Source: Allomeiothermus silvanus DSM 9946
Lineage (GTDB): Bacteria > Deinococcota > Deinococci > Deinococcales > Thermaceae
DNA length: 64,000 nucleotides
Direction of reading: 5' to 3'
Assembly: GCF_000092125.1 (NCBI RefSeq)
Contig: NC_014213.1
Span: 248,001-312,000 of the forward strand
Of this stretch, positions 1 through 50,891 are shown piece by piece; the stretch's first letter is position 1, and each line of letters starts with the position of its first letter. A program made the position numbers and the translations under genes. The notes below the pieces were generated by a model. The model ran no database searches, was not told where the DNA came from, and saw only the letters and a program-made list of their open reading frames with translations.

Positions 1-3
1 AGG

Positions 4-3023: not shown

Positions 3024-3024
3024 C

Positions 3025-3609
3025 TCAACCCTTTAGATCGCGCATCCGCGCGGTATCGATGTGGCCGAAGGTGGACTGGATGCGAGAGATCAGCACCCCC
3101 GCGAGCACCACGGCGGCGAAGGCGTCGAGGGCTACCCCCAGCTCGATGAACAGCGGCAGGCCGTGGGTCTCGGCCAGAGCCAGCAGGAAGACCCCGTTTT
3201 CCAAAGCCAGAAAGCCCAGGACCTGGGTGACGGCCTTTTTACGGCTGGCCATGGAGAGCATCCCCAGCAGGATCAGGCCCAACGCCACCGGTACGGCCTC
3301 CGGCAGCCGAGCCCCTTCCAGGACGAAGCTGCTCCCTACGCGGAAGCCCACCGCCACCAAGACCCCACCCAGGAGCAGGGATAAGGGGATGGAGAGATAG
3401 GACTCCACCTCGTGGCTGATCCCCAGGCGCTCCAGCAGCCAGAACAGGTAGCGGGGGATGAACACCCCCTTGATGAGCAGCAGGGCCACCCCAGCCAGCA
3501 CCAAGTGCCGCTCCCCTTCGGCCAGTACCAACGCCAGGAGCGCCAGGAGCACATTCTGCAAGGCGTAGAGCCGGATCCATGCGTCCAGGCTCTTGCGGCC
3601 CACCATCAA
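3025..3609 (-). CDS. HyfE-like membrane subunit
   Basis: A 194-residue hydrophobic protein with about six membrane segments, matching HyfE/NuoK-like subunits (residues LYALQNVLLALLALV early; ENGVFLLAL near residue 138). It sits between the HyfC- and HyfF-like genes. The listed ATG at 3609 may be internal: the frame is open back to the end of the upstream gene and encodes AASLALAILAAGFL, which looks like the usual first membrane helix. A non-AUG start (TTG at 3612 or a CTG upstream) is therefore possible. Confidence 0.8.
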   Translation of the reverse strand: MMVGRKSLDAWIRLYALQNVLLALLALVLAEGERHLVLAGVALLLIKGVFIPRYLFWLLERLGISHEVESYLSIPLSLLLGGVLVAVGFRVGSSFVLEGARLPEAVPVALGLILLGMLSMASRKKAVTQVLGFLALENGVFLLALAETHGLPLFIELGVALDAFAAVVLAGVLISRIQSTFGHIDTARMRDLKG

Positions 3610-3647
3610 GAATCCCGCGGCCAGAATGGCCAGCGCCAGGCTAGCAG

Positions 3648-4505
3648 CTAGATCCGAAAGCGTAACACCACCCCCAGTACGGCCAGGATGCCTGTGAGCG
3701 TGCTGTAGCTCATCAGGTCGGGAAGCCTCAAGTAGCGCAGCTTGACCCCGTAGGTCTCCAGGTAGCCCAGCCCCAGCCAGGCCAGCAGGAGCGCTGCGGG
3801 GAAGGATAGCCCCCCAAAGGGCAGGAGCAGGGCGATGAGGCCGACGTATACCAGGAGCTTCATCCCCGCCGAGAGTTCGTAGAGGGCCAGGAGCGGTCCG
3901 GAGTGGTCCAGCAATTGGGCTTCGTGGATCATGGTGAGCTCGAGGTGGGTGGTGGGATCGTCCACCGGCATACGGGCTCCTTCGGCCAGCAGCGCCAACG
4001 ATAGCGCAACCAGGGCCAGGATATAGACCAGGGCGTTCTGCGGGGCCAGGGGGGCGAAGTGCGCCAGCGAGAGGCTTCCCGAAGCCAGCCCGGCGGCCCC
4101 TAGGGCCAGCACGGTGCCCGGCTCGGCCAATACCGTCAGCAACCCCTCGCGGTAGCTCCCCTGGCCTCCGAAAGCGCTGCCGGTATCCAGCGCGGCCAGG
4201 ACCTGAAAGAAGCGGCCCAGGTTCAGCAGGTAGACCAGCAGCAAAAAGTCCCCGGCGAAGGAAATCCCCGGCAGCGCCGGAAGAAAGGCTGCGGCGATGG
4301 CTACGCCGAGCAGACCCACCACGGGCGCCATCAGGAAGAGGGGGCTGGCCCCCCGGGGCCTAATCCAGGACTTGCGCCATAGCTTGAAGAGGTTTTTGTA
4401 GTCGTAGAGGGGATCTGGGCCCACCCGGTTTTGCAACCTGGCCTTGAGCCACTTGAGGCTGCCGGTGAAGAGCGGGGCCAGCAGGAGGAGCACCAGGGCG
4501 CTCAT
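3648..4505 (-). CDS. HyfC/NuoH-like membrane subunit
   Basis: A 285-residue protein of the NuoH/HycD family, which anchors the soluble arm and lines the quinone or electron entry site. Family signatures include RLQNRVGPDPLYDYKNLFKL (about residues 23-42), the acidic loop AEGARMPVDDPTTHLELTMIHE (near residue 180) and about eight membrane helices. It overlaps the upstream gene by 4 bp (ATGA). Together with the neighbours it completes a HyfB-C-E-F-G set. Confidence 0.9.
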   Translation of the reverse strand: MSALVLLLLAPLFTGSLKWLKARLQNRVGPDPLYDYKNLFKLWRKSWIRPRGASPLFLMAPVVGLLGVAIAAAFLPALPGISFAGDFLLLVYLLNLGRFFQVLAALDTGSAFGGQGSYREGLLTVLAEPGTVLALGAAGLASGSLSLAHFAPLAPQNALVYILALVALSLALLAEGARMPVDDPTTHLELTMIHEAQLLDHSGPLLALYELSAGMKLLVYVGLIALLLPFGGLSFPAALLLAWLGLGYLETYGVKLRYLRLPDLMSYSTLTGILAVLGVVLRFRI

Positions 4506-6310
4506 CGCCAGACCACCCCCAAAACGAAGAGCAGGGTCAGAAACTGCAACAGCAAGTAGAGGTGTAGGCTACCCGACTGCAGGAGCTGTACCCGGCGGAC
4601 GAAGGCGGTGTACCCCAGGGCCAGGCGGGTCTCGAGGGCCAAGAGCCAGTCGCCGACCTCGAGGCGCACCCTGGGTGGGTCCAGCAACCCCCCCCGAGAG
4701 AGGCGGAGGTTGAGCTCGACAAAGGGAAAAAGCCGCAGCAGCTGCTCACTGTAGCCGAGGGCGTGGGGCTGCATCTGGGGGGTGAGGGCGGAGCCCGCCA
4801 GGCCCGGCTGGTTGAAGCCGCAGTCCCAGGTGTCGTAGGCCCGCTGGGGCTTTCGACCCAGGAGATAGACCAGCCCGCCCCCCAGGCCTAGGAGCGCCAG
4901 GAACAGGGACAACACCGGGTACAGAGGGGGCTCGAGTGGCCTCAGAAGAGCTGCGGGGAAGAGGGAGAGGCCCGTGAGCAGCCCGGCCAAAATCCCCATG
5001 CCGAGCTGTCCGAAGATCCCCAGCTCGTGGGCTTCTCCGGCCTCGAGGCTCCGCGGCTGGCCCAAAAAGGCCAGGCCAAACAGGCGTACATAGGACACCG
5101 CCGCGAGCGCCCCCACCAGGGCCACCGCCCCGACCCCCAGCACCAGGAGGGAGAGCGCCCCGGTGCCTTTGGGGGCTGCCAGGAAGCCCTGGTAGAGGTA
5201 CCACTCGAAGAGGAAGCCCGCCAGGGGTGGCAAGCCTGCCGCCGCCAGCGCGGCCAGGAAACTCCAGGCCGCCGTGCGCGGCAAAAGCCGGTGCAGGCCG
5301 CCCAGACGGGAGAGCTCACGCACGGGAAGCGCTCCCGAACCCAGGAACAGTAGCCCCTTGAAGAGGGCGTGGGCCGCTTGGTGAAAGAAGAAAGCCAGCA
5401 AGAAGAAGGGGCTTTTCAGCAAGAAGTACGCCCCCAAAGCCGCCAGGAGCAGGTTGAGGTTCTCCACGCTAGAGTAGGCTAGCACCCCCTTGTAATCCTC
5501 CTCGGCCAGGCCGCGGACCAGGGCGTAGACAGCCCCCGCCAGGCCCAGCCCAACCAGGAGCCAGCCCACCCACCCTGGGGCCGGGCCTACCCAGGCTTGG
5601 GCGCGGTACAGCCCGTAGAGCCCCAGCTTGACCATACCCCCCGAGAGCAGGGCCGAGAGCGGGCTCATAGCTACCGGGTGGGCCTTGGGCAGCCAGGTGG
5701 AAAAGGGGAAGAGCGCTGCCTTGGTGCCAAAACCCAGTACGAGCCCGGCCCAGACCAAGTTTTCCAAGCCCCCGGAGAGCGGCTCTTTCCGGGTCAGCAG
5801 GACCAAGGCCAAAAACAGCCCGGCTCCTGAGAGGCGGCTGGCCAGGAAGAAGGCCCGGCTGCCCGCCAAGGCCGCCGGGCCCTCCAGGGCGATCAGGAGG
5901 TAGCCCAAAAGGGCCATGCCCTCCCATAGAAAGAGAAACGTATAGCCCGGCGGGGAGAGGACGACCCCTACCATAGCCGCGGCGAAGAGGGGGAGGAGGC
6001 AGGCTACAAGCTTAGCCCTGTCGGGCTGACCGAGGCCAGTGCGGCGGGGTTCGTGGTGGCTCAGGTACTCCCGGAGATAGGGCCCCACCCCCAGGTACAG
6101 CGCCCCCAGCAGGGCCACGTAGAAGCCCGCAGTAGCGTCCAAGGGGGCTCTCTGGGCGCCCGTAAGCCAGGCCTCGAGGCCCGCAACCACCAGCAGCAGC
6201 CCGCTGCCTCCCAGGCAGAGCGGCAGGAACCCGGTCGCGGGTGGGCGCAGCAGGGCCAGCAGGCTTTGCAGCCCCAGGAGGATCAAGGCGATGGTGATAA
6301 AAAGATTCAT
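4502..6310 (-). CDS. HyfB/NuoL-like proton-channel subunit
   Basis: A 602-residue antiporter-like subunit, first gene of the complex operon. It has the conserved FGTKAALFPFSTWLPKAHPV block with channel lysines and ends in the TWDCG motif and amphipathic tail seen in HyfB/HycC. It starts just downstream of the left end of the tnpB element, so any promoter further upstream (for example one shared with arsR at 7806) may have been separated from the operon by that insertion. Confidence 0.88.
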   Translation of the reverse strand: MNLFITIALILLGLQSLLALLRPPATGFLPLCLGGSGLLLVVAGLEAWLTGAQRAPLDATAGFYVALLGALYLGVGPYLREYLSHHEPRRTGLGQPDRAKLVACLLPLFAAAMVGVVLSPPGYTFLFLWEGMALLGYLLIALEGPAALAGSRAFFLASRLSGAGLFLALVLLTRKEPLSGGLENLVWAGLVLGFGTKAALFPFSTWLPKAHPVAMSPLSALLSGGMVKLGLYGLYRAQAWVGPAPGWVGWLLVGLGLAGAVYALVRGLAEEDYKGVLAYSSVENLNLLLAALGAYFLLKSPFFLLAFFFHQAAHALFKGLLFLGSGALPVRELSRLGGLHRLLPRTAAWSFLAALAAAGLPPLAGFLFEWYLYQGFLAAPKGTGALSLLVLGVGAVALVGALAAVSYVRLFGLAFLGQPRSLEAGEAHELGIFGQLGMGILAGLLTGLSLFPAALLRPLEPPLYPVLSLFLALLGLGGGLVYLLGRKPQRAYDTWDCGFNQPGLAGSALTPQMQPHALGYSEQLLRLFPFVELNLRLSRGGLLDPPRVRLEVGDWLLALETRLALGYTAFVRRVQLLQSGSLHLYLLLQFLTLLFVLGVVWR

Positions 6311-6423
6311 CTAAACGCTCCGTGGAAACCCCTGCCTTTAGGCATGGGGAGGAAACCGGGCCGCCGCGAAGCGGCGGGGAAGCCCCATAGACTCTTCAAC
6401 ACTTGAGGACTTCGTGCTATGCT

Positions 6424-7455
6424 ATGTTTGTGAAGCTCACCGCCAAGGTCAAGCTCTTGCCCACGCCCGAACAGCGGGGGTACTTGCTGGACACCCTGCG
6501 GCGCTTCAACGCGGCCTGCAACTACATCTCGGAGGTGGCCTGGGAGACCCGAACCTTTAAGCAGATTCCCCTGCACCACCGGGTCTACCACACGGTCAAA
6601 GACCGCTTCGACCTCTCGGCTCAGATGGCCGTGCGGGCCAACGCTAAGGTGGTGGACGCCTACAAGCTGGACAAGAGGGTCAAACGCTCCTTCCGAGAAC
6701 TCGGGGCCATCACCTACGACGACCGGGTACTCTCCTGGAAGCTGGCGGCTTCCACCGTGTCCATCTGGACCGTAGGGGGGCGGCAGACCATCCCCTTCGC
6801 CGCCGGGGAGTACCAGCGCCGTCTGCTGGCGACCCGGCAGGGCGAGACCGACCTGGCCTACGTGGGGGGTGAGTTCTACCTCTTCGCCACGGTCAACATC
6901 GAGGAGCCTGACCCTGTGGAGGTTAGGGGGGTCTTGGGGGTGGATCTGGGCATCTAGGGGGTGCGCGTAGCGCATACCGGCTCGCACGGGCAAAGCCCGG
7001 CCCTTTGGGCCTAGTGCTTTGCCGGTAACCTGGTCAACCTCGCCACCGACTCGGACGGGGAGGCCTACTCGGGCAAGCACCTCAACTCGGTTCGCCACCG
7101 CCACCGCCGCCTCCGTAAGAAGTTGCAGAAGAAAGGCACCAAGGGGGCCAAGCGCCGTTTGAAAAAGCTCTCGGGTAAAGAGCGGAGGTTTGCCCAACAT
7201 GTGAACCACACCATTACCAAGCGCATCGTGGAGAAGGCCCAACGCACGAATCGGGCGGTTGCTCTGGAAGACCTCCAGGGCATCCGTCAGAGGGTCAGGG
7301 TTAGATGCCGAGTCTGCGGGTTCGCTGACCCCGCGGATAAGGTGGCAGCCCTGAACCTTTCGGTTCGGGGCTGGGCTGCCGTAAACCAGCCGTACCTGGG
7401 GGAAGCGGAGAGTGCTATCTGGCATAATCCTGTCCCTGGAAGCCCCCGGCTTTAG
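6424..7455 (+). pseudogene. tnpB: tnpB (RNA-guided nuclease family), interrupted
   Basis: Starts MFVKLTAKVKLLPTPEQRGY and reads through VLGVDLGI, the first RuvC aspartate region. A 78-bp insertion (6955-7032) with in-frame stops follows, after which homology resumes in the same frame with VNLATDSDG and VALEDLQGIRQ. After RVRVR about 60 residues are missing, including the DPRxTSxxC half of the zinc finger and part of the RuvC core; only CRVCGFADPADKVAALNL remains. Two independent lesions make it non-functional. Confidence 0.85.
6955..7032. repeat. 78-bp hairpin element inserted in tnpB
   Basis: Removing 6955-7032 joins GVDLGI to VNLATDSDG in frame, so the insert boundaries are clear within a few bases. 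It contains GGCAAAGC and GCTTTGCC as an 8-bp inverted repeat around a CCGGCCCTTTGGGCC core. The same GCTTTGCC/GGCAAAGC arms occur at 60773-60822. Confidence 0.75.
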
Positions 7456-7467
7456 CCGTGGGGTAGT

Positions 7468-7806
7468 TTACGACTGGGGAGAGCTTTCCTGTAGCTCGGA
7501 CAGAAGGTCGCTTTGGGTCTTAAGCTGGCGCTCGAAAATGGCCCTTCCCAGATCGAGGAAGGCGTACACTTTGGGGTCGGCAGTACGGTAGTAGATGCTG
7601 GTACCCTCCTTGCGGGTCTCCACGAAGCCCCGCTGGCGCAATACGGAGAGCTGCTGCGAGATGCTGGGCTGCTCGAGCCCCAACTCCTCGGCCAGCCTTC
7701 CCACGCTCATCTCCCCCTCCCGCAGCGCGTCGAGGATGGCCAGGCGCACGGGATGGCCCAGGGCTTTGAAGAACTCGGCTTTGAACCGGTGCAAGGGCGA
7801 CTCCAT
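7468..7806 (-). CDS. ArsR-family winged-helix repressor
   Basis: A 112-residue protein with a typical ArsR/SmtB wHTH: KALGHPVRLAILDALREGE, then the recognition helix LEQPSISQQLSVLRQRGFVE and a wing (RKEGTSIYYR). There is no CxC in the recognition helix (no ELCVCDL), so a classical arsenic site is absent. It may sense another ligand or redox state; the C-terminal helix has no obvious metal ligands. The promoter overlaps a perfect dyad (7822-7840), pointing to autoregulation. The hyf-like operon is the nearest same-strand target, now beyond the tnpB element. Confidence 0.85.
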   Translation of the reverse strand: MESPLHRFKAEFFKALGHPVRLAILDALREGEMSVGRLAEELGLEQPSISQQLSVLRQRGFVETRKEGTSIYYRTADPKVYAFLDLGRAIFERQLKTQSDLLSELQESSPQS

Positions 7807-7814
7807 GTACGCCG

Positions 7815-7842
7815 ATTATATGCAATAGATAAAATATTGCAA
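7815..7842 (-). promoter_or_regulatory. arsR promoter with embedded operator
   Basis: On the minus strand TTGCAA (7842-7837) lies 16 bp from TATAAT (7820-7815). GCAATA (7822-7827) and TATTGC (7835-7840) form a perfect 6-bp dyad with a 7-bp spacer between the two boxes. The start codon is 8 bp after the -10 box, so the transcript is probably leaderless or nearly so. Confidence 0.7.
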
Positions 7843-7856
7843 TATACGAATGTTTA

Positions 7857-8071
7857 GAGCTTCAAGGCTGAGGGGAGCAGACGGGCCTGTCGGGCAAAAG
7901 ACGACCTTTGCGCTCCCATTGGCGCGAGGTCTGTGCCAAGACACCCAGCGCTGCCGCTAGCTGGGAAAGTCAAGCCCTGATTGCTTCTTGTTGTGGGGGT
8001 CCCCACCCGAAGCGTGTCCAGCTAGGGCGCTTTGCTTTGCCTGCAGGGGAACGCTTCGGGCGGGGTACGAA
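7857..8071. other. Intergenic region without a convincing gene
   Basis: No ORF with family features is visible. It holds GCTTTGCTTTGCC (about 8029-8041), which resembles one arm of the hairpin element found at 60773 and 6955, possibly a remnant. Confidence 0.4.
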
Positions 8072-9319
8072 TCACCAGGTGATGGTGCTTTGGAGGAGGG
8101 CGGCCTCGAGGTGCACGGGCCACATCCGGTCCAGGAAGAGGGTGTGTCCGTTGAAGGTTTCCCGGGGGATGGGCCGGGCGGCGAGGAGGGCGCTTAGGGG
8201 CTGGTCCCCGGCGAAGGCGGTGGCCCGAAGCTGGACGCTGCTCAAGGGGGAGGGCACCACCCCGGCAAAGCCGGGGGCGTTCTCCAGGTCAAGGTAGTAG
8301 CTCGTGGCGCTGCCCAAGGCCCCAGGACTCACGAAATGCCGCCAGTAGCGCACCCCTGGCTCGCTAAGGAAGAGGGCGTAGCCTAGGAAGCTGAGGCCGG
8401 GGCTAAATCCTCCCGAGGCGATGTTGCTGAAGGTGGGCAGGGCGCTTGGGGTGTGGGTCTGGCTGCCGGAAAGGCTTAAAGGAGGCACGGAGAGGCTGAG
8501 AGAGGCTCCCGGGGCTACTGCAAGATCGCTGGCGTCCTTGCGCAGGATGGCGCAGCTAGAGCCGTGGCAGGTCCAGAACTGGAAGAGGTCCCCGCCGGAG
8601 AGAGAACCGGGCCGGGCCACCGCCTGGGGGCTTCCCGTGCCCGTCCAGTTCGGGGGAACCAGGTCCACCGGGACGAAGGTGGAGAGGACGAGGCCAGCGT
8701 AGGAGAAGAAGGCGGGCGGGGTGGTGAGGCTGAGGGTACCCGTAGGGTTTACGCTGACGGTAACCGCGGCGGGCGGGATGCTGACGGGACCGGTGCGGCC
8801 GAAGTGGGGGGTGCTCCCGCTATCTCCGAAGACCGCTATCTCCCGCCCCGGCCCTGTGGGCGCGGTGAGCCCGGCAAAGCTTCCCCCGCTGAGGCTCAGC
8901 GCACCCCAGGCCGAGAAGGCGGTCCCGGAGCCGAGGCTCGGGGAGACGGTCCCACTTACCGCCGCCGTGGGGCTCGCATAGGCCACAGGACAGCGCACCA
9001 TCAGGTTGCTTCCCAGCTCATTGCGCTTCAGATCCAGGCTTACATAGAAGTCCACGCCCCCTACGCTAGGGCAGCGGAAGGCCACCTGGAAGCGGGCCCC
9101 AGAGGGGATGGGAAGGCTCCAGCTGGACAGCCCCGTGGGCAGGGCGTTCCAGGGGAGGCCCGAGGTGGAGGGGGGCGGGCCGACCCGCCAGGCCGCAGCC
9201 AGGGGCTGAAGGGGTTCTCCGATTCCATCCACCAGGATCACGTTCAGGGTCTGGACGCCGCCGCCCCCGCACGCCGCGAGGAGCAGCAGCAAAGGGAAAA
9301 AAAGCCAAGCGCGTTTCAC
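8072..9319 (-). CDS. Surface lipoprotein of unknown function, related to the two paralogues nearby
   Basis: A 415-residue protein with a lipobox signal (LLLLLAACGGGG, Cys at residue 17), so it is probably anchored to a membrane and exposed outside. The body is rich in Ser, Pro, Gly and Thr and looks all-beta. The C-terminal region (LGYALFLSEPGVRYWRHFVS, GATSYYLDLENA-like stretch) lines up loosely with the ends of the proteins at 10234-11460 and 12962-14176. The gene is 10 bp downstream of the LamG-like lipoprotein gene and shares its promoter. No enzymatic motif was seen. Confidence 0.7.
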   Translation of the reverse strand: MKRAWLFFPLLLLLAACGGGGVQTLNVILVDGIGEPLQPLAAAWRVGPPPSTSGLPWNALPTGLSSWSLPIPSGARFQVAFRCPSVGGVDFYVSLDLKRNELGSNLMVRCPVAYASPTAAVSGTVSPSLGSGTAFSAWGALSLSGGSFAGLTAPTGPGREIAVFGDSGSTPHFGRTGPVSIPPAAVTVSVNPTGTLSLTTPPAFFSYAGLVLSTFVPVDLVPPNWTGTGSPQAVARPGSLSGGDLFQFWTCHGSSCAILRKDASDLAVAPGASLSLSVPPLSLSGSQTHTPSALPTFSNIASGGFSPGLSFLGYALFLSEPGVRYWRHFVSPGALGSATSYYLDLENAPGFAGVVPSPLSSVQLRATAFAGDQPLSALLAARPIPRETFNGHTLFLDRMWPVHLEAALLQSTITW

Positions 9320-40683: not shown

Positions 40684-43674
40684 TTAGCCGTACAGCAGCG
40701 GTTCCACCACCTCTTCCAGCGGGGGCAACGCTGGGGGGGCGAGGTTGGCTTCATAGCCCCTCAAAATACGTTGGGCACGGTCTTTGTCGGAGCTAAGGGT
40801 GGCGGGATGCCGGCTGGTCAGCCACAGCAGCTGCAAGGCGGGGGAAGGCTGGGCCTGGGCCAAGAAGTAATCTGCCCAGCCAACCAGGGTTTTCATTATC
40901 AGGGGTAGGTGCTGGATGGACCAAGCCCCCTCGAGGGCTTGGCGGAGGTACTCTTTGGATTGGAGGGGTTGCTGCTGGGCTGCCGCAATCGTGCTCAACG
41001 AGAGGTGGATCTCGATCTCCAAGGGAAGGTCTAGCTCATCCTTGGCCAGCTCGAGGGCCGAAAGGCTATACCTGGCGGCTTCTGAGTAGCGACCTAGTTG
41101 CTGGCAGGCACTTCCCAGGCGCATCAAAATCTCGCCCTCCAGCGAGCGGGTGCCGGTGAGGCGGGCTTGCTCCAGGGCCTCGAGGGCCAACGTCCTGGAT
41201 TCCTCCGGATGGCCTTGGTCGAGGCTCAGGGCGGACAGGTTGTTGAGGTTGTACAAGGCCCCGATGCGGTTGCCCAGCTTCCTGAAGAGGCGGATGGCCT
41301 GGCGGTAGTGCGCTTTGGACCGCTCGTAGTGGCCCAGGTTGTCCTCGGTGATCGCCAGCCAGCCCCAGCAGACCGCTGTCAACCGCTCGCTGCCGATGGA
41401 TTGGGCTAGGCTCAGGGCCTCCTCTTTATGGGCTAGGGCTCGAGGGTGGTTGCCGCCAAACGCGGCGGTTTCGCCCAGCGTGCCCAGCCCCCAGATGACC
41501 GGCTCAAACTCCTCCAAAGGGCGCAGCAGGGCCAAGGCTTGGAGGGTGAGCGCTTCGGCGGTGTCGTAGTGCCCCTGCCGCAGGAACATCTTGGCCTGAT
41601 GCACCAGCAAGGTACCCAGCGCGGCTCGGTGCTCGGGCTGTTCCGGGCTCAGTCCGGCGATGGCCTCGGCAAACACCTCGATGCCCTCCTGATAGCGCTT
41701 TCGCGCGTCGAAAAAACGCATCAGGGCTTCGGCCCCGGCTTTGATCAAGTGGGCTTTGCTTTCGCCGATCGCCCAGCGCCAAGCCGATCGCAGGTTCTCC
41801 AGCTCGGCTTCCATCAGGGCGAAGGTGGCTTTGGGGTTGGCCCCGCGAATCTCCTCGAGGCAGCGTTGCAACACGCGCAGATAGTAACCTGCGTGTTCGG
41901 AACGGGCTTCTTGCTCCAGAAGGGGGTCTTCGGCGAGTTTTTCCCCCATGTATTGGAATAGCAAGGCGTGGCGGAAGAAGCGCCCCTCGGCGTCAGTGTA
42001 GAGCAGGGATTTGTCGGTTAAGCTGGCGAGAACGGGTAATGGGACCCGCGCCGCCAGCTTGGCGGCTTCGCGGCTAAACCCGCCCTTAAAAACCGAGAGG
42101 CGGTTGAGCGCTTGCTGCTCGTCGGAGGTCAGCAGACGCCAGGAATGCTCAAAAACCTGGCGGATGCTCTGATGCCTGCGGGCGAGGTCGGGGCTTTGAG
42201 CAGCGAGAAAGTCGGTATCCCGTCGGATCTCGACGCTGATGGCCCCCAACGGCAGCACCCGGGCCCAGGCTGCCGCCAGCTCGATGCCGAGAGGCGAGCC
42301 CTCGACCAGGCGGCAAATCTCCAGGATGCTGGAGACATTGCCCTCCTCAAGCCGGAAGCGGGGCCGCAGGCGCTGCACGCGCAGGGAGAAAAGCTGCACG
42401 GCGTCGCTGTGGACGGCCTGGGCAGGGTCGGCGGGGAGAGGGAACCCCGCGATGGGCAATATCTGCTCGGCTTCCAGACCTAGCCGCTCGCGCGAGGTGA
42501 CCAGCACCCGTAACCCAGGGCACTGCGCCAGCAGTTCGGCCACCTGAGGAGCGGCCTCCAACAGGTGCTCGAAGTTGTCCAGCACCAGGAGCACCTCCCC
42601 TTCGGCGATGTGCCGGGCGAGTTGCTCGAGGGGGGGCTGGCTCCCCTGAAAACCAAACCCCAGGGCCTCGGCCAGCGCCGCCGCTAGCGAGTTCGGCGAG
42701 GACAGGGCTACCAGTGAGGCAAAATAGACCCCTCCGGCGAATCGCTCCCTTTGCTGGTAGGCAGTTTGCAGCGCTAGGCGGGTCTTGCCAACCCCGCCGG
42801 GGCCGATCAGGGTTAGCAGGCGGTATTCGCCGCGGTGCAGCAGCTGGGCAATCTCCGCCAGCAGCGCGTTCCGCCCCACGAAGGGCGTGGCGGGGATGGG
42901 CAAGGAACGGTTGCGGGCGATGGGAGCTTCGTGCTGGGGAGCGGGCGCGACGGCCAAGAGGCTGGGGTCTTCCTGACGAATGGCATGGGCGAGCTGTTCA
43001 AGGGCTACCGTGGGCCGTAGGTCCAGCTCCTGCGAGAGCCTTTCACAGAACTTCCCGTAGGCCTTGAGCGCCTGACCCCGCCTTCCCGCCTCCACCGTAG
43101 TCCACAGGTACGCCTCTAGAGCCTCTTCGTCGAGTTCGTCGTGTTCCAGCAGCTTCGCCAGCAACTGGCTGGCCTCCTGGGGGTTTCCCGCGTTCCTGAG
43201 CGTCTCGGCGCGTTTGAGTACCGCACTGCGCCAACACCCGCTCAGGTGCTCCCGCTCGGTCTCGAGCCAGGCCGAGAACTCCGCAGACCCATCCCCCCAG
43301 AAGCCCTCCAGGAGTGTACCCCCGTACAGCTCTAACGCCCGTTCCCAGTAGCTTTCCTGGATGGCTTTCAGGAACGCCTGCACGTCGGTCGGCACTGACC
43401 AACGCAGGCGTTCGCCCTCGGCCTCGAGGTGGTTATCGAGCCACTCCAAGCCCCGCACCCGTCCCAGAAGATGGCGCAAATCCTTGCGGGCGGTGCTCGT
43501 ATCCGCCTCTGGCCAGAACATATAGGCCAACGCTTCCCGGCGCACCCAGTCGCCCGTGAAGGCCAGGTAAGCCAAGAGCTGGTAGCGCTTGTCATCGCAG
43601 AAGGCCCATGTTCGAGCGCCGATGCGGACATGGGGCATCCCCATCAGCCTGACATGGCCTATGGCGGTGTTCAT
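40684..43674 (-). CDS. SARP-NTPase-TPR regulator (AfsR/BTAD type)
   Basis: A 996-residue protein: an N-terminal wHTH (RREALAYMFWPEADTSTARK DNA-binding region), a BTAD domain (about 95-235), an NB-ARC/LuxR-type NTPase domain with Walker A LIGPGGVGKTRLALQTAYQQ and Walker B VLLVLDNFEHL, then TPR repeats from about residue 620. It likely integrates a signal through the TPRs and activates the operon at 37144-40439 through the 11-bp repeat. It is the next same-strand gene upstream of that operon. TAATAT is a possible -10 box near 43790. Confidence 0.85.
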   Translation of the reverse strand: MNTAIGHVRLMGMPHVRIGARTWAFCDDKRYQLLAYLAFTGDWVRREALAYMFWPEADTSTARKDLRHLLGRVRGLEWLDNHLEAEGERLRWSVPTDVQAFLKAIQESYWERALELYGGTLLEGFWGDGSAEFSAWLETEREHLSGCWRSAVLKRAETLRNAGNPQEASQLLAKLLEHDELDEEALEAYLWTTVEAGRRGQALKAYGKFCERLSQELDLRPTVALEQLAHAIRQEDPSLLAVAPAPQHEAPIARNRSLPIPATPFVGRNALLAEIAQLLHRGEYRLLTLIGPGGVGKTRLALQTAYQQRERFAGGVYFASLVALSSPNSLAAALAEALGFGFQGSQPPLEQLARHIAEGEVLLVLDNFEHLLEAAPQVAELLAQCPGLRVLVTSRERLGLEAEQILPIAGFPLPADPAQAVHSDAVQLFSLRVQRLRPRFRLEEGNVSSILEICRLVEGSPLGIELAAAWARVLPLGAISVEIRRDTDFLAAQSPDLARRHQSIRQVFEHSWRLLTSDEQQALNRLSVFKGGFSREAAKLAARVPLPVLASLTDKSLLYTDAEGRFFRHALLFQYMGEKLAEDPLLEQEARSEHAGYYLRVLQRCLEEIRGANPKATFALMEAELENLRSAWRWAIGESKAHLIKAGAEALMRFFDARKRYQEGIEVFAEAIAGLSPEQPEHRAALGTLLVHQAKMFLRQGHYDTAEALTLQALALLRPLEEFEPVIWGLGTLGETAAFGGNHPRALAHKEEALSLAQSIGSERLTAVCWGWLAITEDNLGHYERSKAHYRQAIRLFRKLGNRIGALYNLNNLSALSLDQGHPEESRTLALEALEQARLTGTRSLEGEILMRLGSACQQLGRYSEAARYSLSALELAKDELDLPLEIEIHLSLSTIAAAQQQPLQSKEYLRQALEGAWSIQHLPLIMKTLVGWADYFLAQAQPSPALQLLWLTSRHPATLSSDKDRAQRILRGYEANLAPPALPPLEEVVEPLLYG

Positions 43675-43858: not shown

Positions 43859-44956
43859 TCAACGGGCCTTTTCCACCGCCTCGAGCACCCGCATCATCTC
43901 CCGCACCCACTTCGGGAAGGAGAAGCCCTGCTCCATAAGCCTGCGCTCGCGATAGGCCGTGAGCAGCTCTCGGACGCCTAAGAAAGCCATGTCGGGGGTG
44001 AGCCGCCGCAGGAATTGCCAGCCAGCCTCCCAGCGCTGGTGGGTGAGCGTGCTGAGCACGGCGGCCACCACGCCGTACATCAGGGTATACAGTTGATCCT
44101 GCCGCAGAGGCAACGCCATCTCTGGATCCGCCAGCAGGGCTTCTGGATCGGGTATCTCCTGCTCCTGCAACCAGGCGGCGAAGGTGAGGCCGTAGGGACC
44201 CAGCGCCCCCAGCAAAAAGATCTGCAGGGCTTCCCGCATCGTCTCGGGGCTTCCCATGGCCAGCCAGGCTGCGAGACCTCTGGCCGCGATGGACTCCCAG
44301 GTTCTGGGGTTGGGCCATCCCCAGACCGTATCTCCTGGCTTAGGTATGGGTGCGACTGCCTGGGGCTGGCGCATCAAGATGAGGGCCTTGGCTCTCGGCA
44401 GATGGGTTGCAACGGCCTGGGGGGTGGGTAGCTCGAGGCCCGCCAGCGGATCTTCCCAGCCTTGCACCAGGGCCCGGGTGAAGTGGGCTGCGCTGGGCGG
44501 GGAGATGGGGATATGCACCATGCGGGTCTTCATCGCCAGACTCCATACCTCCGCCCCGTCCCCCTCGCCCCACTCGCCCGGGTTGGAGGCCGCCACCACG
44601 ACCGTCTCCCGGGGCAGGGGGGTATCTCCCACCACGCGCTCGTCGATCACCTTCAGCAGGCTGGGCCGCACATCCAAAGGCGTACCCCCGATCTCGTCGA
44701 TGAAGAGGATGGCCTGGCGGGCCGCCAGCAGCCGCTCCACCCAGGGCAGGTGGGCCAGCTCCAGCCTTCCGTCCTTGACCAGCGGAATGCCGCCGAAATC
44801 GGTGCGGTCCCGGTTGGCGGCGATCATCACCTCCAGGTGCCAGCCCAGCTTGCGGGCAATCGAACGCACCAGCGCGGTCTTCCCGATCCCGGGCATCCCG
44901 ATCAGGTGGGTAGGCACCTGGGCTGCGACGGCGATAGCGAACGCTTGTTGCTCCAC
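43859..44956 (-). CDS. MoxR-type AAA+ ATPase
   Basis: 365 residues from GTG at 44956, 2 bp after the upstream stop. Walker A is GMPGIGKTALVRSIAR, Walker B ILFIDEIGGTPLDVRPSLLK, with the sensor NPGEW. The C-terminal half is a helical domain (PDPEALLADPEMALPLRQDQ) not found in standard MoxR. MoxR proteins act as chaperones for VWA-domain partners; the next upstream gene encodes one. Confidence 0.85.
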   Translation of the reverse strand: MEQQAFAIAVAAQVPTHLIGMPGIGKTALVRSIARKLGWHLEVMIAANRDRTDFGGIPLVKDGRLELAHLPWVERLLAARQAILFIDEIGGTPLDVRPSLLKVIDERVVGDTPLPRETVVVAASNPGEWGEGDGAEVWSLAMKTRMVHIPISPPSAAHFTRALVQGWEDPLAGLELPTPQAVATHLPRAKALILMRQPQAVAPIPKPGDTVWGWPNPRTWESIAARGLAAWLAMGSPETMREALQIFLLGALGPYGLTFAAWLQEQEIPDPEALLADPEMALPLRQDQLYTLMYGVVAAVLSTLTHQRWEAGWQFLRRLTPDMAFLGVRELLTAYRERRLMEQGFSFPKWVREMMRVLEAVEKAR

Positions 44957-44958
44957 CT

Positions 44959-46218
44959 TCAAAACTCCTCTGGAATGCGGATGGTCCACACGTATTCCGG
45001 CGTGTCCGGCGGAAGTTCGCCCAGGATTCCCGCGATCACCGGTATCCCCGGAGGGGTCTCTGGCCAGGGGGTGAGGCCATCGGTAAGCACCACCACCGCC
45101 ACCGGGCAGGGCCTTAGCTGGAGCGCTGCCTCGATCCCGAGCCGCATATCGGTTCCCCCACCCCCCTGCAACCGTAGCTGCCGGGCCCGGTGGACACGTT
45201 GTGCGGTGTAAACAGCCGCGTCCACGCACAGTACGGTGACCTCCACCTTGGCCCACCGCAAGATGCCGTCTACCTCCGCGAGGGCCTGGCCCAGCATGGC
45301 CTCGCCCACCGAGCCTGAGGTATCCAGCACCACTGCCACGTGTGGCTTTAGGTCGTAGGTTCCGGGCAGGATTACGTCCCGGTAGACGCCCTGGCGGCGG
45401 TGGGGCCGTTCGTAGGAGGGGCGAACACGTCCGGCCCCTAGCCGCACCCCTCGGTGCACAAAGTGCCTTAACAGGTGTTGCCAGGGCACCGTGGGGTTAC
45501 CCACCGCCTGGGCCCAGCGGAGCACGCCCAGGGGCAGATCGCCGCGCCCGAGGTGGTACTCGAGGGCCGCGCGGGCCACTTCCCGGCGCAGGATGTTCAG
45601 GTCGGTGGGGCTTAGCGCGGGGTACTCGGAGTGGTCCTGGGGCAGCTCCCAAGCCTGCCGTTCCTCGGCCGGGGCGTGGGTGTGGGTCATGCCCGGGGTG
45701 CGCGGACCGGTTGCGGTACAACCCCCAGCCTCCTGTCCCGACGGTTCGGTCTGGCCCTGGGTCGGTGGATCCTCGTGGTTTTGAGGATATTTTGGCTCGA
45801 GCCGCTGTTTGAGTGTCCAGTAATAATGCTCGTCCAGGCCACCCGGCTCGAGGCCGAAGCGCTGGGGGTAGAGCCCACCCGGCGGCAGCGCTAACCGGGC
45901 GGCTTTGGCGTCGTCGTTGATCGCACAGTCGCAAGCGATATTCCATAGCCGCTGCTCGTGGACGTCCAGCAGCTCCAGGGTATCCCCCCGCTCTAAATGG
46001 TGACGAAGCAGGTGCTCCAGCTCGTGCCAGAGCAGGCCGGTGACTTGCTTAGGAAGCACTCTGGCCACGAATTGCGGGTTGTAGTACAGCCTGCCACCCC
46101 GGTCCACCGCCGCCGTCGGCACCTGCTCGCGCTCCACCAGGCGGAGCGACCACAGGGCGGGCGCGTAGAAGGGAAATTTTTGTATCAGCGCCAATCGGGC
46201 GATTTGCATGGGATTCAC
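44959..46218 (-). CDS. VWA-like/DUF2201-type protein with an HExxH site
   Basis: A 419-residue protein. N-terminal metallopeptidase-like domain: LLWHELEHLLRHHLERGD (HExxH) and WNIACDCAINDD. A Pro/Gln/Thr-rich linker (about residues 150-190). C-terminal VWA-like domain with a MIDAS-type motif VAVVLDTSGSVGEAM and VVVLTDG. This matches DUF2201 proteins. Likely the client of the AAA ATPase downstream. Confidence 0.85.
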   Translation of the reverse strand: MNPMQIARLALIQKFPFYAPALWSLRLVEREQVPTAAVDRGGRLYYNPQFVARVLPKQVTGLLWHELEHLLRHHLERGDTLELLDVHEQRLWNIACDCAINDDAKAARLALPPGGLYPQRFGLEPGGLDEHYYWTLKQRLEPKYPQNHEDPPTQGQTEPSGQEAGGCTATGPRTPGMTHTHAPAEERQAWELPQDHSEYPALSPTDLNILRREVARAALEYHLGRGDLPLGVLRWAQAVGNPTVPWQHLLRHFVHRGVRLGAGRVRPSYERPHRRQGVYRDVILPGTYDLKPHVAVVLDTSGSVGEAMLGQALAEVDGILRWAKVEVTVLCVDAAVYTAQRVHRARQLRLQGGGGTDMRLGIEAALQLRPCPVAVVVLTDGLTPWPETPPGIPVIAGILGELPPDTPEYVWTIRIPEEF

Positions 46219-46258
46219 GGGCTGCTAACCCCCATGGTTTGGGTGAGGCGTCTCGTCG

Positions 46259-47443
46259 CTATGGCTCTTCCTTGCGGAGCCCCTGTATTGCCCTGATGGT
46301 ATCGGAGGCCATCCGCGCCATATTAGGCCCCTCCGTCAAGGCCAGTAAGACCAGCACCTCTTCGGGCGTGAAGGGGTTTCTGGCCACCTCCTGGCGCACG
46401 ACATAAACCTCATCCTCCGCCAGCCGGGTCAGCACCTCCGGGGGTGTGCGCAGGTTGCGTGCGACTTCCCTGCGTACAAAAAGGTCTTCGTCTTCCGCTA
46501 GCTGAGCCAGCACCTCTTCCAGCACCTCTTTGGGAGTGTGGGGATTTTGTGCGACCTCGGAGCGTACCCGGCTGTTCTGGTCCCTGGCCAGCCCGACCAG
46601 CGCCTCTGCCGGCGCGGAGGGGTTTCTCGCCACACCAACACGAATGGACAGGTCTTCGTGGCGAGCCAAACAGAGGAGCGCAGCCCCGCTGAGAGCGGGG
46701 TTCACCCCCACCCGCTCACGCACCTCCCGATCCTCGTCACGGCTCAGCTGTAGCAGGACAGCCTCGGGGGTGGAGGGGTTTTTGGCCACCTCACGGCGCA
46801 TTTCCGGATTGCTGCTCTTCGCAAAACGGGCCAACCAGTCTTCCGGGGTCTGCGGGTGGCGGGCCACCAGTAAGCGCACCTCTGGGTCAGGATCCTTGGC
46901 CAGACGCCGCAGAGCCTCCTTGGGCGCGAGGGGATGGCTGGCCACCGCCTTGCGCACCTCCGGGGCGAAATCCCGGCTCAGCCGCGCCAGTACCGATGGC
47001 TGTGCGCTGGAGTTGCTGGCCACCGCCTCGCGCACTTCCGGGGCGGGATCCTGACATAGCCTGGCCAGAACCGACGCGGGTGTATTGGGGTTGTTGGCCA
47101 CCATTTTGCGTATTTCCCAGAGGGGGTCCTGGCCGAGCCACGCCAGGGCCTTGGGAACATCGCTGCGCGCGGCCACTCGAGCCCGCACGTAGGGATTATC
47201 GTCCCTGGCCAGCCGCAACAGCAGCCTCTTGGGAGCGCGGGGATTTCCCGCTACCGCTTCGCGCACCCGGTAGTCACCATCCTCGGCCAGCCGGGCCAGG
47301 GCCTTTAGGGGGGTTTGTTCGCATCGGGCCAGCTCATGGCGCACCCACCGTTCTTTATGTTCGATCAGTTCGGCCAGCATCCGGGGAGAGGGCTTCCGGC
47401 GACGAACCGGCGTGGTCGGCGAAAGGTAGAGAGCTTGCGCCAT
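46259..47443 (-). CDS. Leucine-rich-repeat-variant (LRV) protein
   Basis: A 394-residue protein made almost entirely of about 13 repeats of 24-25 residues with the pattern (V/L)RxxVAxNPxTPxEVLxxLAxD. Such alpha-alpha/3-10 solenoids bind other proteins. It has no catalytic domain. It sits upstream of the VWA and AAA genes in the same operon, so it may be the substrate adaptor of that pair. Confidence 0.88.
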   Translation of the reverse strand: MAQALYLSPTTPVRRRKPSPRMLAELIEHKERWVRHELARCEQTPLKALARLAEDGDYRVREAVAGNPRAPKRLLLRLARDDNPYVRARVAARSDVPKALAWLGQDPLWEIRKMVANNPNTPASVLARLCQDPAPEVREAVASNSSAQPSVLARLSRDFAPEVRKAVASHPLAPKEALRRLAKDPDPEVRLLVARHPQTPEDWLARFAKSSNPEMRREVAKNPSTPEAVLLQLSRDEDREVRERVGVNPALSGAALLCLARHEDLSIRVGVARNPSAPAEALVGLARDQNSRVRSEVAQNPHTPKEVLEEVLAQLAEDEDLFVRREVARNLRTPPEVLTRLAEDEVYVVRQEVARNPFTPEEVLVLLALTEGPNMARMASDTIRAIQGLRKEEP

Positions 47444-47451
47444 CGGGTGCT

Positions 47452-47691
47452 TCAGTACTCCTTACGGCCCTTACGGTCGCGGTAGACCTGGCTGGAGAGG
47501 GTCTTGCGGGTGCGGGTGGGGGAGGTCTCCAGATCCAGGAGCGCCTGCCTGAGTTCTTCGGCTTCGGCGGCCAGCGCCGGGCCGTGTTCGGCGACGCTGG
47601 GAGCGGCCCGTAGGAGCGAGGTCCGCGCGGCCTCAGCGGCGGCGCGGCTTGAGGGCCTCGAGCCGTTGGCGCAGGCGCTGCATGAGCGCAT
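47452..47691 (-). CDS. Small hypothetical protein in the MerR-LRV-VWA-AAA operon
   Basis: Up to 79 residues; the reading ends GPALAAEAEELRQALLDLET then SPTRTRKTLSSQVYRDRKGR. The start is unclear: the ATG at 47691 is inside the end of the MerR gene, and no other good start was seen. The charged tail and its conservation of spacing (8 bp to the LRV gene) suggest it is real, but no family was recognised. Confidence 0.4.
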   Translation of the reverse strand: MRSCSACANGSRPSSRAAAEAARTSLLRAAPSVAEHGPALAAEAEELRQALLDLETSPTRTRKTLSSQVYRDRKGRKEY

Positions 47692-48241
47692 CGCCCTCGC
47701 CGGGGGTCTTGGGAAAGCGGAAGTCCTCGCGCACGTGCAGTTCCAGGCCGGGGGCCACCTCCAGGCGGTGCCAGCGCAGCTCGGGGGTGGGGTCTGGGGT
47801 GAGCGCCTCGAAGAGGGGGGTAGGAGAAGCCGTCCGGTACTGCTCCCGCAGCCCGGATAGGTAGCTCAGGGCAGAGGTAGGCGGGTTGGCGGTCAGGGCC
47901 ACCCCCCCTTCGAGCATCGCCAGAAGCTCCGCGTCGCTCTTGCGGCGGGCCAAGTCGCCCAGGGCGCTGGCCCCGTGGCCTTCGGCCATCAGCCGCCGCA
48001 CCAGCAAAAGCTGCAGCAGGTGCCGCGCCGAATAGCGGGCCTCCCGCCCGGCCCGCAAGGGCTCATCGAGCATACCCAACCCTGTATAATGGCGCACCAA
48101 ACGCGCGGTGACGGCCTCGCGGACCCGCAGACTGCCGGGGTCTTGGGGCAGATAACGGGGTAGGCGGGCGTTGGCTTCGCGCACCAAGCCCTCCAAGTCC
48201 CACTCTGCGCCACGGTGCAGCAAGGCCTCGAGGTCTTCCAT
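47633..48241 (-). CDS. MerR-family regulator
   Basis: A 202-residue protein. A MerR-type wHTH is present (RVREAVTARLVRHYTGLGML then YSARHLLQLLLVRRLMAEGH). No B12-binding motif is visible. First gene of the operon; its promoter region carries TTGACA and a dyad (48258-48276), also positioned to control the divergent HipA-like gene. Confidence 0.75.
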   Translation of the reverse strand: MEDLEALLHRGAEWDLEGLVREANARLPRYLPQDPGSLRVREAVTARLVRHYTGLGMLDEPLRAGREARYSARHLLQLLLVRRLMAEGHGASALGDLARRKSDAELLAMLEGGVALTANPPTSALSYLSGLREQYRTASPTPLFEALTPDPTPELRWHRLEVAPGLELHVREDFRFPKTPGEGDALMQRLRQRLEALKPRRR

Positions 48242-48257
48242 ATCCGGAGGATAACTA

Positions 48258-48276
48258 TTACAATCAGAATTGTCAA
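48258..48276. promoter_or_regulatory. Putative MerR operator in the divergent promoter region
   Basis: TTACAAT (48258-48264) and ATTGTCAA (48269-48276) form an imperfect dyad; TTGACA on the minus strand overlaps its right half. The region is short (about 90 bp between start codons). Confidence 0.5.
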
Positions 48277-48329
48277 TGTCATCTCAAATGTTCATTTGCG
48301 GCGCTAGCGAAAGCGTAGGTACGGGTACC

Positions 48330-49145
48330 ATGGCTCCCATGAGCGGGAGCATCTCTAGGGACCGGGGCTCGGTGCTGCCCCCTGGCTGGCAAACCCGGCT
48401 ACCGGAGCGGCGGCGTTTCCAGGAGTTCGCGGTGCTTGAGCCGGGCGGCCGGGGGCGTAACGGCCCGGTATTGGTAGGGCGGCTAGGCAAAGAGCGCTGG
48501 GTGCTCAAGTCAAGCGACCTCGCCGGTGCAGCCAACGAGATCATCGCCAGCGTGGTGGGCCGCAGCCTGGGCCTCCTGGTTCCCCCGGCGATGGCGGTGG
48601 ACAAGGGAGGGGATCTCTGGGCGGCCTCGATGCACGTGTTTGGCCTCCAACACCACCCCCGGGTGGGCTTTAACGACCGTAACCCCTTCCGCTTCGGCCC
48701 CGATGGACCGGCGGATATTCCCAACTACTGGCCTCAGGTGGCGCTTGGCAAGCTGCTGGGCGACCACGACCGCAAAGGCGGCAACTGGGGGATCGATCAG
48801 TATGGTCAGCGCTGGGACTTCGACTTTTCCTTGAGCGAGAACGCCCACCTCTTCATCGGCCCTGACGCGCCGGACTGGAACCACTACCGCAGGGAGTTCT
48901 TCCGGGAGGGTATTGAAGGGATGCAAGCCCGCGGTATCTCTCCTTCCGCTTTAGAGGGCTTCCTCATACCCTACCGAGCACTGGCGCAGAGCGACCCGGA
49001 AAAGCTCTATGGCTGGACGAGCGAGGTGGGGGATTTGGGCGGGCTGTTTATGGGGCAGCGACCCCTCGGTCCCGCGCTTATCGAAGCCGCTCGGGCCAAC
49101 CGCCAGGCGATGAGGGAAGCGCTCGAGGATCTGGGATTAGACTAA
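48330..49145 (+). CDS. HipA-like kinase-fold protein
   Basis: About 271 residues from ATG 48330 (alternative starts at 48270, 48276 and 48339). Features of HipA-type kinases: GRLGKERWVLKSSDLAGAAN with a lysine, VVGRSLGLLVPPAMAV, the catalytic-like loop KLLGDHDRKGGNWGID and metal-binding RWDFDFSLS. It may phosphorylate a protein; the classic HipB antitoxin is absent, and the next gene (95 residues) is the likely partner. Confidence 0.65.
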   Translation: MAPMSGSISRDRGSVLPPGWQTRLPERRRFQEFAVLEPGGRGRNGPVLVGRLGKERWVLKSSDLAGAANEIIASVVGRSLGLLVPPAMAVDKGGDLWAASMHVFGLQHHPRVGFNDRNPFRFGPDGPADIPNYWPQVALGKLLGDHDRKGGNWGIDQYGQRWDFDFSLSENAHLFIGPDAPDWNHYRREFFREGIEGMQARGISPSALEGFLIPYRALAQSDPEKLYGWTSEVGDLGGLFMGQRPLGPALIEAARANRQAMREALEDLGLD

Positions 49146-49154
49146 ACTGGGGCG

Positions 49155-49442
49155 ATGATTCTCTGGCTCAGTCTCTACCTCCCCAGCCGCACCAACCGCG
49201 ACGCTATTGGCGTCGAGGATGGGCGGGTGGTGATGAGCGTGCACTTTCCTACCGCGTGGCTCGAGGCGGCCAAGACCTATATCCCCGGCATCCCCGAGTA
49301 CCTGAGCGTGATGGCCTGGATGTTTGCTGTACACGAGGGAAAGATCCAGGTAGAAGACCGCATCCCGGGATGGGCTTGGGGCGACGAGGAGGAAGCTCGC
49401 GCTTACCTGAAGGCAGCCCTGGCGGAGCGGGGCATAGAGTGA
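49155..49442 (+). CDS. Hypothetical protein co-transcribed with the HipA-like kinase
   Basis: A 95-residue protein starting MILWLSLYLPSRTNRDAIGV, 9 bp after the kinase gene, with an alpha/beta pattern and an acidic C-terminus (GWAWGDEEEARAYLKAALAE). I do not recognise a family. Small partners next to HipA-like kinases are common and may be regulators. Confidence 0.5.
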   Translation: MILWLSLYLPSRTNRDAIGVEDGRVVMSVHFPTAWLEAAKTYIPGIPEYLSVMAWMFAVHEGKIQVEDRIPGWAWGDEEEARAYLKAALAERGIE

Positions 49443-49799: not shown

Positions 49800-50891
49800 T
49801 AGGAGTTACGCAGTTGCAGTTGACTGGACATTCTTCTGTGTGCTAGGAGGAGAGTGCTTAGCCAAGCTTCTCCAAAGGGGGTGATGCCCATGAACCCACC
49901 GAAGTGCGATGACCTGGACTACATCCACTTTCTCATCGCCGCTCAGCGGGTCTTCACCTGTACCGAGGCCGCTCGCTGTAGTCCAAAGGAGAAGAGCCCT
50001 CCCGCCCATGATGCCTTTACCCGCCTGCTGCAAAGACAGCCGCCCGACACGGCGGCGCTGTGGCAGGAGGCCAAGGCCTTCGTGAAGCTCAGGGAGGGGC
50101 TGCTGATCCTGGACGACACCACCCTGGATAAGCCCTACGCTCGGGACATGGATCTGGTGAGTTACCACTGGAGCGGCAAACACCAAAGGGTGGTTAGGGG
50201 CATCGCCCTCATGACCCTGCTGTGGACGGAGGGGCAGGCCCTGATCCCCTGCGACTTTCGGGTCTACGACAAGCCCCAGGATGGGAAGAGCAAAAACGAC
50301 CACTTTCAGACCATGCTCCAGAAAGCGAAGGAGCGGGGGTTTCAGCCGGAATATGTCCTGATGGACAGCTGGTATGCCAGCTTGGAGAACCTCAAGGCCA
50401 TAGTCAGCTTTGGCTGGCGGTTTCTGACGCGGCTGAAGGGCAACCGCCTGGTCAACCCGGAGGGGAAGGGAAATGTACCCATCCGTGAGGTGGAAATCCC
50501 TGGGGAGGGGAGGGTGGTTCATCTTCGGGGTTTTGGGTTCGTGAGGGTGTTCCGAACGCTCTCCAAGGACGGGGAGGCGGAGTACTGGGCCACGAACCAT
50601 CTGGGGATGAGCGAAGAGAAGCGGGCGGAGTTAGAGCGGCAAGGATGGGGGATCGAAGTGTACCATCGGGGGCTCAAGCAGTGCTGTGGGGTGGAGCGGG
50701 CCCAGGTGAGGAAGGCGGTCTCCATCCTGCGGCACCTCCTCCTGGCTTTGCGGGCCTTCCTCCGGCTGGAGGTCTACCGGCTGCGCAGGGGGGTGAGCTG
50801 GTACGAGGCCAAGGCGTCCATTGTTCGCGAGGCAATACGAAGTTATCTCGCCCATCCCCTCCACATCCTTCAGCCAACTGCGTAAGTCCTA
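49800..50891 (+). mobile_element. Intact insertion sequence with terminal repeats and target duplication
   Basis: Terminal inverted repeats TAGGAGTTACGCAGTTG (49800-49816) and CAACTGCGTAAGTCCTA (50875-50891) match 16 of 17. The flanks repeat TCCGGT or ATCCGGT (49793-49799 and 50891-50897), a 6-7 bp target duplication. It holds one full-length transposase gene and is probably a recent insertion. Confidence 0.88.
49890..50885 (+). CDS. DDE transposase (IS701/DDE_5-like)
   Basis: 331 residues from ATG 49890, preceded by GGGGGTG. Motifs: GLLILDDTTLDKPYARDMDL (first Asp), YVLMDSWYAS (second Asp) and QGWGIEVYHRGLKQCCG (Glu region). The frame is open and full length. The nearest family by memory is IS701; IS4-group naming cannot be excluded without a search. 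Confidence 0.82.
   Translation: MNPPKCDDLDYIHFLIAAQRVFTCTEAARCSPKEKSPPAHDAFTRLLQRQPPDTAALWQEAKAFVKLREGLLILDDTTLDKPYARDMDLVSYHWSGKHQRVVRGIALMTLLWTEGQALIPCDFRVYDKPQDGKSKNDHFQTMLQKAKERGFQPEYVLMDSWYASLENLKAIVSFGWRFLTRLKGNRLVNPEGKGNVPIREVEIPGEGRVVHLRGFGFVRVFRTLSKDGEAEYWATNHLGMSEEKRAELERQGWGIEVYHRGLKQCCGVERAQVRKAVSILRHLLLALRAFLRLEVYRLRRGVSWYEAKASIVREAIRSYLAHPLHILQPTA

Follow-up and report, generated by a model that had tools for sequence, protein, structure and literature searches.

Several pairs of a MoxR ring ATPase and a VWA protein with a metal-ion-dependent adhesion site (MIDAS) have been described, among them NorQ-NorD, CbbQ-CbbO and RavA-ViaA, with NorQ-NorD as a published MoxR-VWA precedent (PMC9976466, PMC13036017). 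MIDAS mutants of NorD keep the binding to NorQ and lose activation of the target, and the N-terminal domain of NorD has been proposed to give specificity (PMC9976466). A MoxR chaperone of jumbo phages together with a vWA cochaperone that carries an N-terminal metallopeptidase domain has likewise been published (Iyer et al. 2021, PMC7824862), as have the vWA-MoxR-VMAP ternary conflict systems (Kaur et al. 2020, PMC7159879). Here, we describe a locus of Allomeiothermus silvanus DSM 9946 in which a MoxR-type ATPase and a DUF2201 protein of this general kind are encoded next to a solenoid protein built from LRV repeats. The stretch analyzed (in the following, the window) comprises 64,000 nucleotides, that is, bases 248001-312000 of contig C2 (347,854 bp); the genome amounts to 3.72 Mb and includes two other contigs.

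The genes of this locus are real, and its core is a trio of LRV, DUF2201 and MoxR genes on the megaplasmid, with an order of transcription on the minus strand of MerR-like, LRV, DUF2201 protein and MoxR-type ATPase. We propose that the three core products would act as one three-part AAA+ machine, namely a MoxR-VWA remodelling system with a built-in metallopeptidase-like domain and the LRV protein as client adaptor, a reading to which we assign a probability of roughly one half. The original prediction, made from the letters of the stretch, had already recognized an LRV protein with about 13 repeats, a DUF2201-type protein with HExxH and VWA motifs and a MoxR-type ATPase, and all three assignments were borne out by the profile searches described below.

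The MoxR-type AAA+ ATPase (43859..44956, minus strand) comprises 365 aa when read from a GTG at 44956, which, going by the sequence, is the best start; a GAGGAG is located 8 nt ahead of it, and the stop codon of the DUF2201 gene comes immediately before it. The end of the open reading frame (ORF) at 45256 was dropped as a start, since the GTG with its ribosome-binding site is the better candidate; the two genes are adjacent, 2 nt lying between the DUF2201 stop and the MoxR start. In Pfam profile searches, the protein matched AAA_5 (PF07728; 38.8 bits, E 1.1e-9, cut-off 22), and further matches were obtained to the phrog_1297 ATPase of PHROGs (2e-30) and, with a MoxR profile, to NorQ structures (5e-11). 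Walker A (GMPGIGKT) and Walker B (FIDE) are both intact in this AAA_5/AAA_3-type ATPase, and the GxPGxGK, DE, N and R columns are invariant in the MoxR alignment (A2). A MoxR gene was found in the vicinity of DUF2201 at 90 of 99 bacterial loci; for viral loci the count is 70 of 80, with a distance of up to 2 kb in 56 cases. The MoxR-DUF2201 pair as such is already known. A paralogous MoxR/DUF2201 pair of the same genome is unlinked yet found on one replicon, with both genes on C3 about 14 kb apart.

The DUF2201 protein (44959..46218, minus strand) combines an N-terminal zincin-like domain, a putative metallopeptidase, with a C-terminal VWA domain bearing a MIDAS. Both DUF2201_N (PF13203; 113.5 bits, 1.8e-32) and DUF2201 (PF09967; 81.0 bits, 1e-22) are matched above the curated Pfam cut-off in the one protein, the HExxH motif reads HELEH (residues 65-69), and the MIDAS is complete (D299/S301/S303, T356, D380). 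Among 113 relatives, H65, H69, H74, D299, S301, S303 and T356 are conserved in 112, D97 in all 113, D380 in 111 and E66 in 103. An AlphaFold model (predicted local distance difference test score, pLDDT, of 86.8) places the VWA domain at 289-419 and the HExxH motif on a helix of the N-terminal domain. A structure search with this model recovered the VWA fold (Z 13.8 to 6pyo over 126 residues, root-mean-square deviation (rmsd) 2.5), which is compact at about 130 aa; Foldseek matches to Ro60 were discarded, as they reflect the shared VWA domain alone (rmsd about 20) and are not meaningful. For the N-terminal domain, a profile search gave a weak match to the M48 peptidase 3c37 around the HExxH motif (E 5.5e-4), and the structure search for a zincin fold was uninformative, its list being filled by VWA matches with no zincin chain. 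Peptidase activity is accordingly one that we infer from sequence, because the fold search could not judge this domain and the M48 match is weak. As a side observation, DUF2201 proteins of phages are labelled HNH or homing endonucleases in PHROGs and GenBank (phrog_1314 and the phage matches H45, H47-H49, H51, H53, H56 and H61), a label that looks like a propagated error, since the matched phage proteins are DUF2201 relatives.

The LRV solenoid (46259..47443, minus strand; 394 aa) consists of 12-13 repeats of about 26 aa (PF01816; 188.6 bits, E 1.4e-57, cut-off 21.6), of which 12 were found by the local model and 13 by eye. Its gene, the genome's sole LRV gene, is separated by 40 bp from one of the two DUF2201 genes. 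The LRV protein of Azotobacter vinelandii is an iron-sulfur (Fe-S) protein near nif genes. It shares the PF01816 repeats with the protein described here; the latter, however, is without the Cys cluster, containing 3 Cys, no CxxC motif and nothing else that points to a metal or Fe-S site. This bears on a scenario in which the LRV protein is not an adaptor but the client that the MoxR-VWA pair matures or repairs, an idea encouraged by the frequent linkage of known pairs to the genes of their clients (NorQ-NorD, CoxD-CoxE). Given the missing CxxC or other metal signature and the existence of stand-alone LRV genes without the pair, we consider it highly unlikely. The best match of the window LRV among those compared is itself such a stand-alone LRV protein (43%), which fits recruitment of the LRV gene in the window. 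Elsewhere, several LRV-repeat genes were seen clustered on one strand, away from MoxR and DUF2201 (L183, G006:C3:1-20000).

Among the described systems, the jumbo-phage pair likewise joins a MoxR-like ATPase to a VWA protein with an N-terminal metallopeptidase domain; the window DUF2201 protein has a direct match in Atu_ph07 (H60), and the published proteins ASV44729.1 and ASV44728.2 (PMC7824862) lie at this match. In contrast, the window pair is located on a bacterial megaplasmid, and LRV was found at 0 of 80 viral loci. With NorQ-NorD, CbbQ-CbbO and RavA-ViaA, the locus has the MoxR ring ATPase and the MIDAS-bearing VWA protein in common, but it differs from the NorQ-NorD type by its DUF2201_N/zincin-like N-terminus, its compact VWA domain and a linked LRV gene in place of an enzyme client. 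The vWA-MoxR-VMAP systems resemble it in pairing MoxR and VWA proteins with a third, variable protein (PMC7159879); unlike in these, neither VMAP nor bpMoxR was matched above cut-off in Pfam, the window MoxR reaching 19.1 bits for bpMoxR against a cut-off of 27. No publication joining LRV or pSYSA (a plasmid discussed below) with MoxR, or describing LRV as a third component, was found in a literature search that reached few subscription journals.

By analogy with these systems, the earlier idea of a chaperone/unfoldase with a client and an adaptor is plausible and fits the published MoxR-VWA pairs. MoxR, as expected for its family, would form the ring ATPase motor, on which the VWA domain of the DUF2201 protein may dock in the manner of NorQ-NorD, with the MIDAS metal gripping the client. 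The zincin-like N-terminal domain might then cut or otherwise process the remodelled client, as its conserved zinc-site residues suggest, and the LRV solenoid would serve as the client-binding adaptor that gives the target, a role to which its solenoid fold and the repeated gene linkage point.

This linkage was surveyed in 111 genomes of the phylum. DUF2201 relatives occur in 33 and LRV repeats in 26 of them, and 23 of the 26 LRV-bearing genomes encode both (Fisher p 5e-13, not corrected for relatedness). On Meiothermus chromosomes, the genes follow the order MoxR-LRV-DUF2201, with LRV proteins of about 900 aa and >20 repeats; another family of the order likewise shows MoxR-LRV-DUF2201 and, in one locus, LRV-MoxR-DUF2201 (genus assignments of relatives are presumed here from kinship codes and knowledge of the phylum). 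The recurrent trio genes lie on one strand, often with small gaps or none, and their flanks (a pyridoxal phosphate enzyme and an amine oxidase among them) are common to close relatives only. In one genome (G033), the trio was inferred across a contig break, and an assembly gap is present in another (G024).

A tree of 51 DUF2201 proteins resolved two well-supported groups. In clade I, which also contains the Synechocystis plasmid pSYSA and the Thermus phage phiFa, LRV is linked to MoxR-DUF2201 in 18 of 24 rows. Clade II is made up of rows from Thermus, plasmids, actinobacteria, Bacillota and Bacteroidota, among which the window is the sole one with LRV adjacent; by its placement in the tree, the window MoxR-DUF2201 pair belongs to this mobile-element clade. 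The starred branches force at least 2 changes of LRV linkage, and because the window sits in the other clade, its LRV link is best read as a second association, independent of clade I. Conservation of the LRV and MerR genes with the AAA-VWA pair had been named beforehand as a check on the operon; it was found for LRV, which adjoins the pair in the 18 clade-I rows and in the window, while MerR lay within 10 kb of a DUF2201 gene in none of the other genomes with both, to the extent that their contigs reach. Related arrangements are seen in Thermus sp. 2.9, whose clade-II pair has LRV fragments about 3.3 kb upstream on the same strand (split at a contig edge), with LRV, TROVE, two YbjN, MoxR and DUF2201 genes all in one direction, and on Synechocystis pSYSA (L194, 11908-30900), where an LRV gene lies about 4 kb from MoxR and DUF2201.

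The main rival explanation holds that the window is a chance or decaying neighbourhood, in which MoxR-DUF2201 is a stand-alone mobile pair beside which LRV, MerR and kinase-like genes landed by rearrangement with no functional link. It draws on the lack of LRV in most clade-II loci, on the stand-alone nature of the best LRV match and on a transposase-like ORF at 49854-50885 (recognized by eye only). Against this, the genome's one LRV gene would have had to settle 40 bp from a DUF2201 gene, the sister clade has members of these three families together in an operon, and the LRV fragments of Thermus sp. 2.9 lie upstream of another clade-II pair. Overall, we regard a chance neighbourhood as rather unlikely.

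Several findings nevertheless weigh against the three-part machine. In the window's own clade, hardly any other locus has LRV close to the pair, and none was found at the actinobacterial loci or at any of the 80 viral ones, from which it follows that the pair works without LRV. The window LRV is less like the LRV proteins of the trios (32-36%) than the stand-alone protein (43%), and the three closest relatives of the window DUF2201 protein have no adjoining MoxR. E66 of the HExxH motif gives way to Q, H or L in 9 of the 113 relatives (in an alignment unchecked by eye), and catalysis by this domain may therefore not be universal. Finally, comparison with relatives revealed the region to be a mosaic with two recombination joints, so that gene order at the window is weak evidence when taken alone.

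Another scenario is a defence or conflict system, in which LRV would act as the sensor of an invader or of stress, with the MoxR-VWA-peptidase pair cleaving or remodelling an effector in response. Plasmids and phages frequently carry the pair, the LRV gene and pair of pSYSA are flanked by type I-D CRISPR genes and toxin-antitoxin-type genes, and MoxR-vWA ternary conflict systems are published (PMC7159879). However, the core proteins of the window gave weak, generic ATPase matches in PADLOC, bpMoxR stayed below its cut-off, and the clade-I trio is chromosomal with metabolic flanks. Defence, which the original prediction had raised along with stress as a possible role, we consider improbable; when 27 ORFs of the flanks were scanned with a defence island in mind, the matches were scattered. 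In a search for the trio in other phyla, most of the LRV genes inspected on other plasmids had neither MoxR nor DUF2201 nearby. As an observation apart, in plasmids of Rhodococcus, Xylanimonas and Mycobacterium (L190, L191 and L192), three further genes come after MoxR-DUF2201, with products of ~60 aa, of ~390 aa (without a Pfam match in the single example searched) and of AAA-type ATPase kind, possibly another conserved cassette.

The genes next to the trio, MerR and the kinase-like gene, are, by comparison with relatives, rearranged remains of other gene sets. The MerR-like protein (47633..48241, minus strand; 202 aa) matches MerR_1 (PF13411) weakly but above cut-off (26.1 vs 21.6 bits), so that its predicted helix-turn-helix domain stands, whereas its place in the operon does not: it stems from a MerR-VWA module, of which it makes up the upstream half. 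In the related locus L170, a MerR gene whose product is 95.5% identical to that of the window is followed by an intact 412-aa VWA gene; the pair also occurs in L171-L174 and more widely, and the window MerR is 63-96% identical to those of L170-L174. The window thus shares MerR with this module of Meiothermus and Thermus, but the VWA gene is deleted. An ORF between MerR and LRV (47452-47691) was rejected as a gene, being the C-terminal deletion remnant of the VWA gene (47452..47691, minus strand), whose last ~59 residues are 86% identical to the VWA protein of relatives. At the deletion joint (47622..47630, minus strand), the window has a single TCCGCGCGG (as read on the plus strand), at 47622, compared to two copies in L170, at 6181 and 7269 and hence 1,088 bp apart, which marks a 1,088-bp deletion between 9-bp repeats. 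An intact orthologue of the deleted VWA gene is no longer found in the genome. MerR was therefore rejected as the dedicated regulator of the operon, since its partner is the deleted VWA gene and since in other genomes with both, MerR and DUF2201 lie on different contigs or >30 kb apart. A promoter-like site upstream of MerR (TTGACA-N17-TATCCT; 48248..48276, minus strand) lies in a region conserved in L170, and the scan found none directly before LRV, so the MerR promoter may by now also drive the trio by read-through; the scan itself is weak, with 2 sites found and 1.0 expected by chance.

TROVE and YbjN genes were seen close to MerR-VWA pairs in three genomes and close to DUF2201 genes in two (L170, L171, L172, L047, L050, L208), and the trio of G008 has a TROVE gene at a distance of about 7 kb; these cases look like a loose guild of VWA-type proteins in mobile regions. 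On the window's own contig C2 (L204, 174000-190000; minus strand, 1-8171), genes for TROVE (Ro60-like), RNase II-type RNB, YbjN and exonuclease-helicase proteins stand together as an RNA-processing module of the same megaplasmid; its TROVE, YbjN and exonuclease proteins are 92-98% identical to those of G026 (L047), which are encoded there ahead of a DUF2201 gene.

On the plus strand, the kinase-like ORF (48270..49145) is followed by a small partner gene (49155..49442; 95 aa), which is conserved and gave no family match above threshold. The kinase-like protein carries K80, E90, DRKGGN (167-172) and DFD (183-185), a set that is invariant in three homologues and suggests a kinase. The name 'HipA-like', under which it had been predicted, denotes a motif resemblance only and was not upheld, because no match above threshold was obtained in Pfam, NCBIfam, PADLOC, PHROGs or a PDB profile search; an AlphaFold model built from three sequences (pLDDT 45) was too poor to name the kinase type. 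Homologues with the small partner occur at other loci (G025, 71%; G023, 60%), the partner following the kinase-like gene in L178 (70%) and L179 (52%). These homologues have some 45 N-terminal residues without alignment in the window, where the ORF is 5'-truncated and DNA homology to relatives sets in from about 48357. The second recombination joint lies at 48344..48357, between the end of the MerR-side homology (48344) and the start of the kinase-side homology (48357). The divergent control region that the pair was thought to share with the operon is hence a product of rearrangement, and the kinase-like pair a neighbour outside the trio machine. Two joints and a gutted VWA gene beside LRV are also what a chance neighbourhood would leave behind. 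On the other side of the trio, 184 bp downstream of MoxR and on the same strand, lies a gene for a 996-aa BTAD/STAND-like regulator with tetratricopeptide repeats (40684-43674).

A bolder extension of the three-part machine, which we put forward tentatively and think doubtful, is that the trio represents an undescribed class of ATP-dependent metalloprotease in which the protease would reside in the VWA co-chaperone and LRV would select the substrate, the adaptor having been acquired independently by two deep lineages. MoxR-VWA pairs are widespread, and few have a known client. If the three-part reading is true, the locus would offer a tractable thermophilic system in which the AAA+ protease nature and the target choice of this group could be tested.

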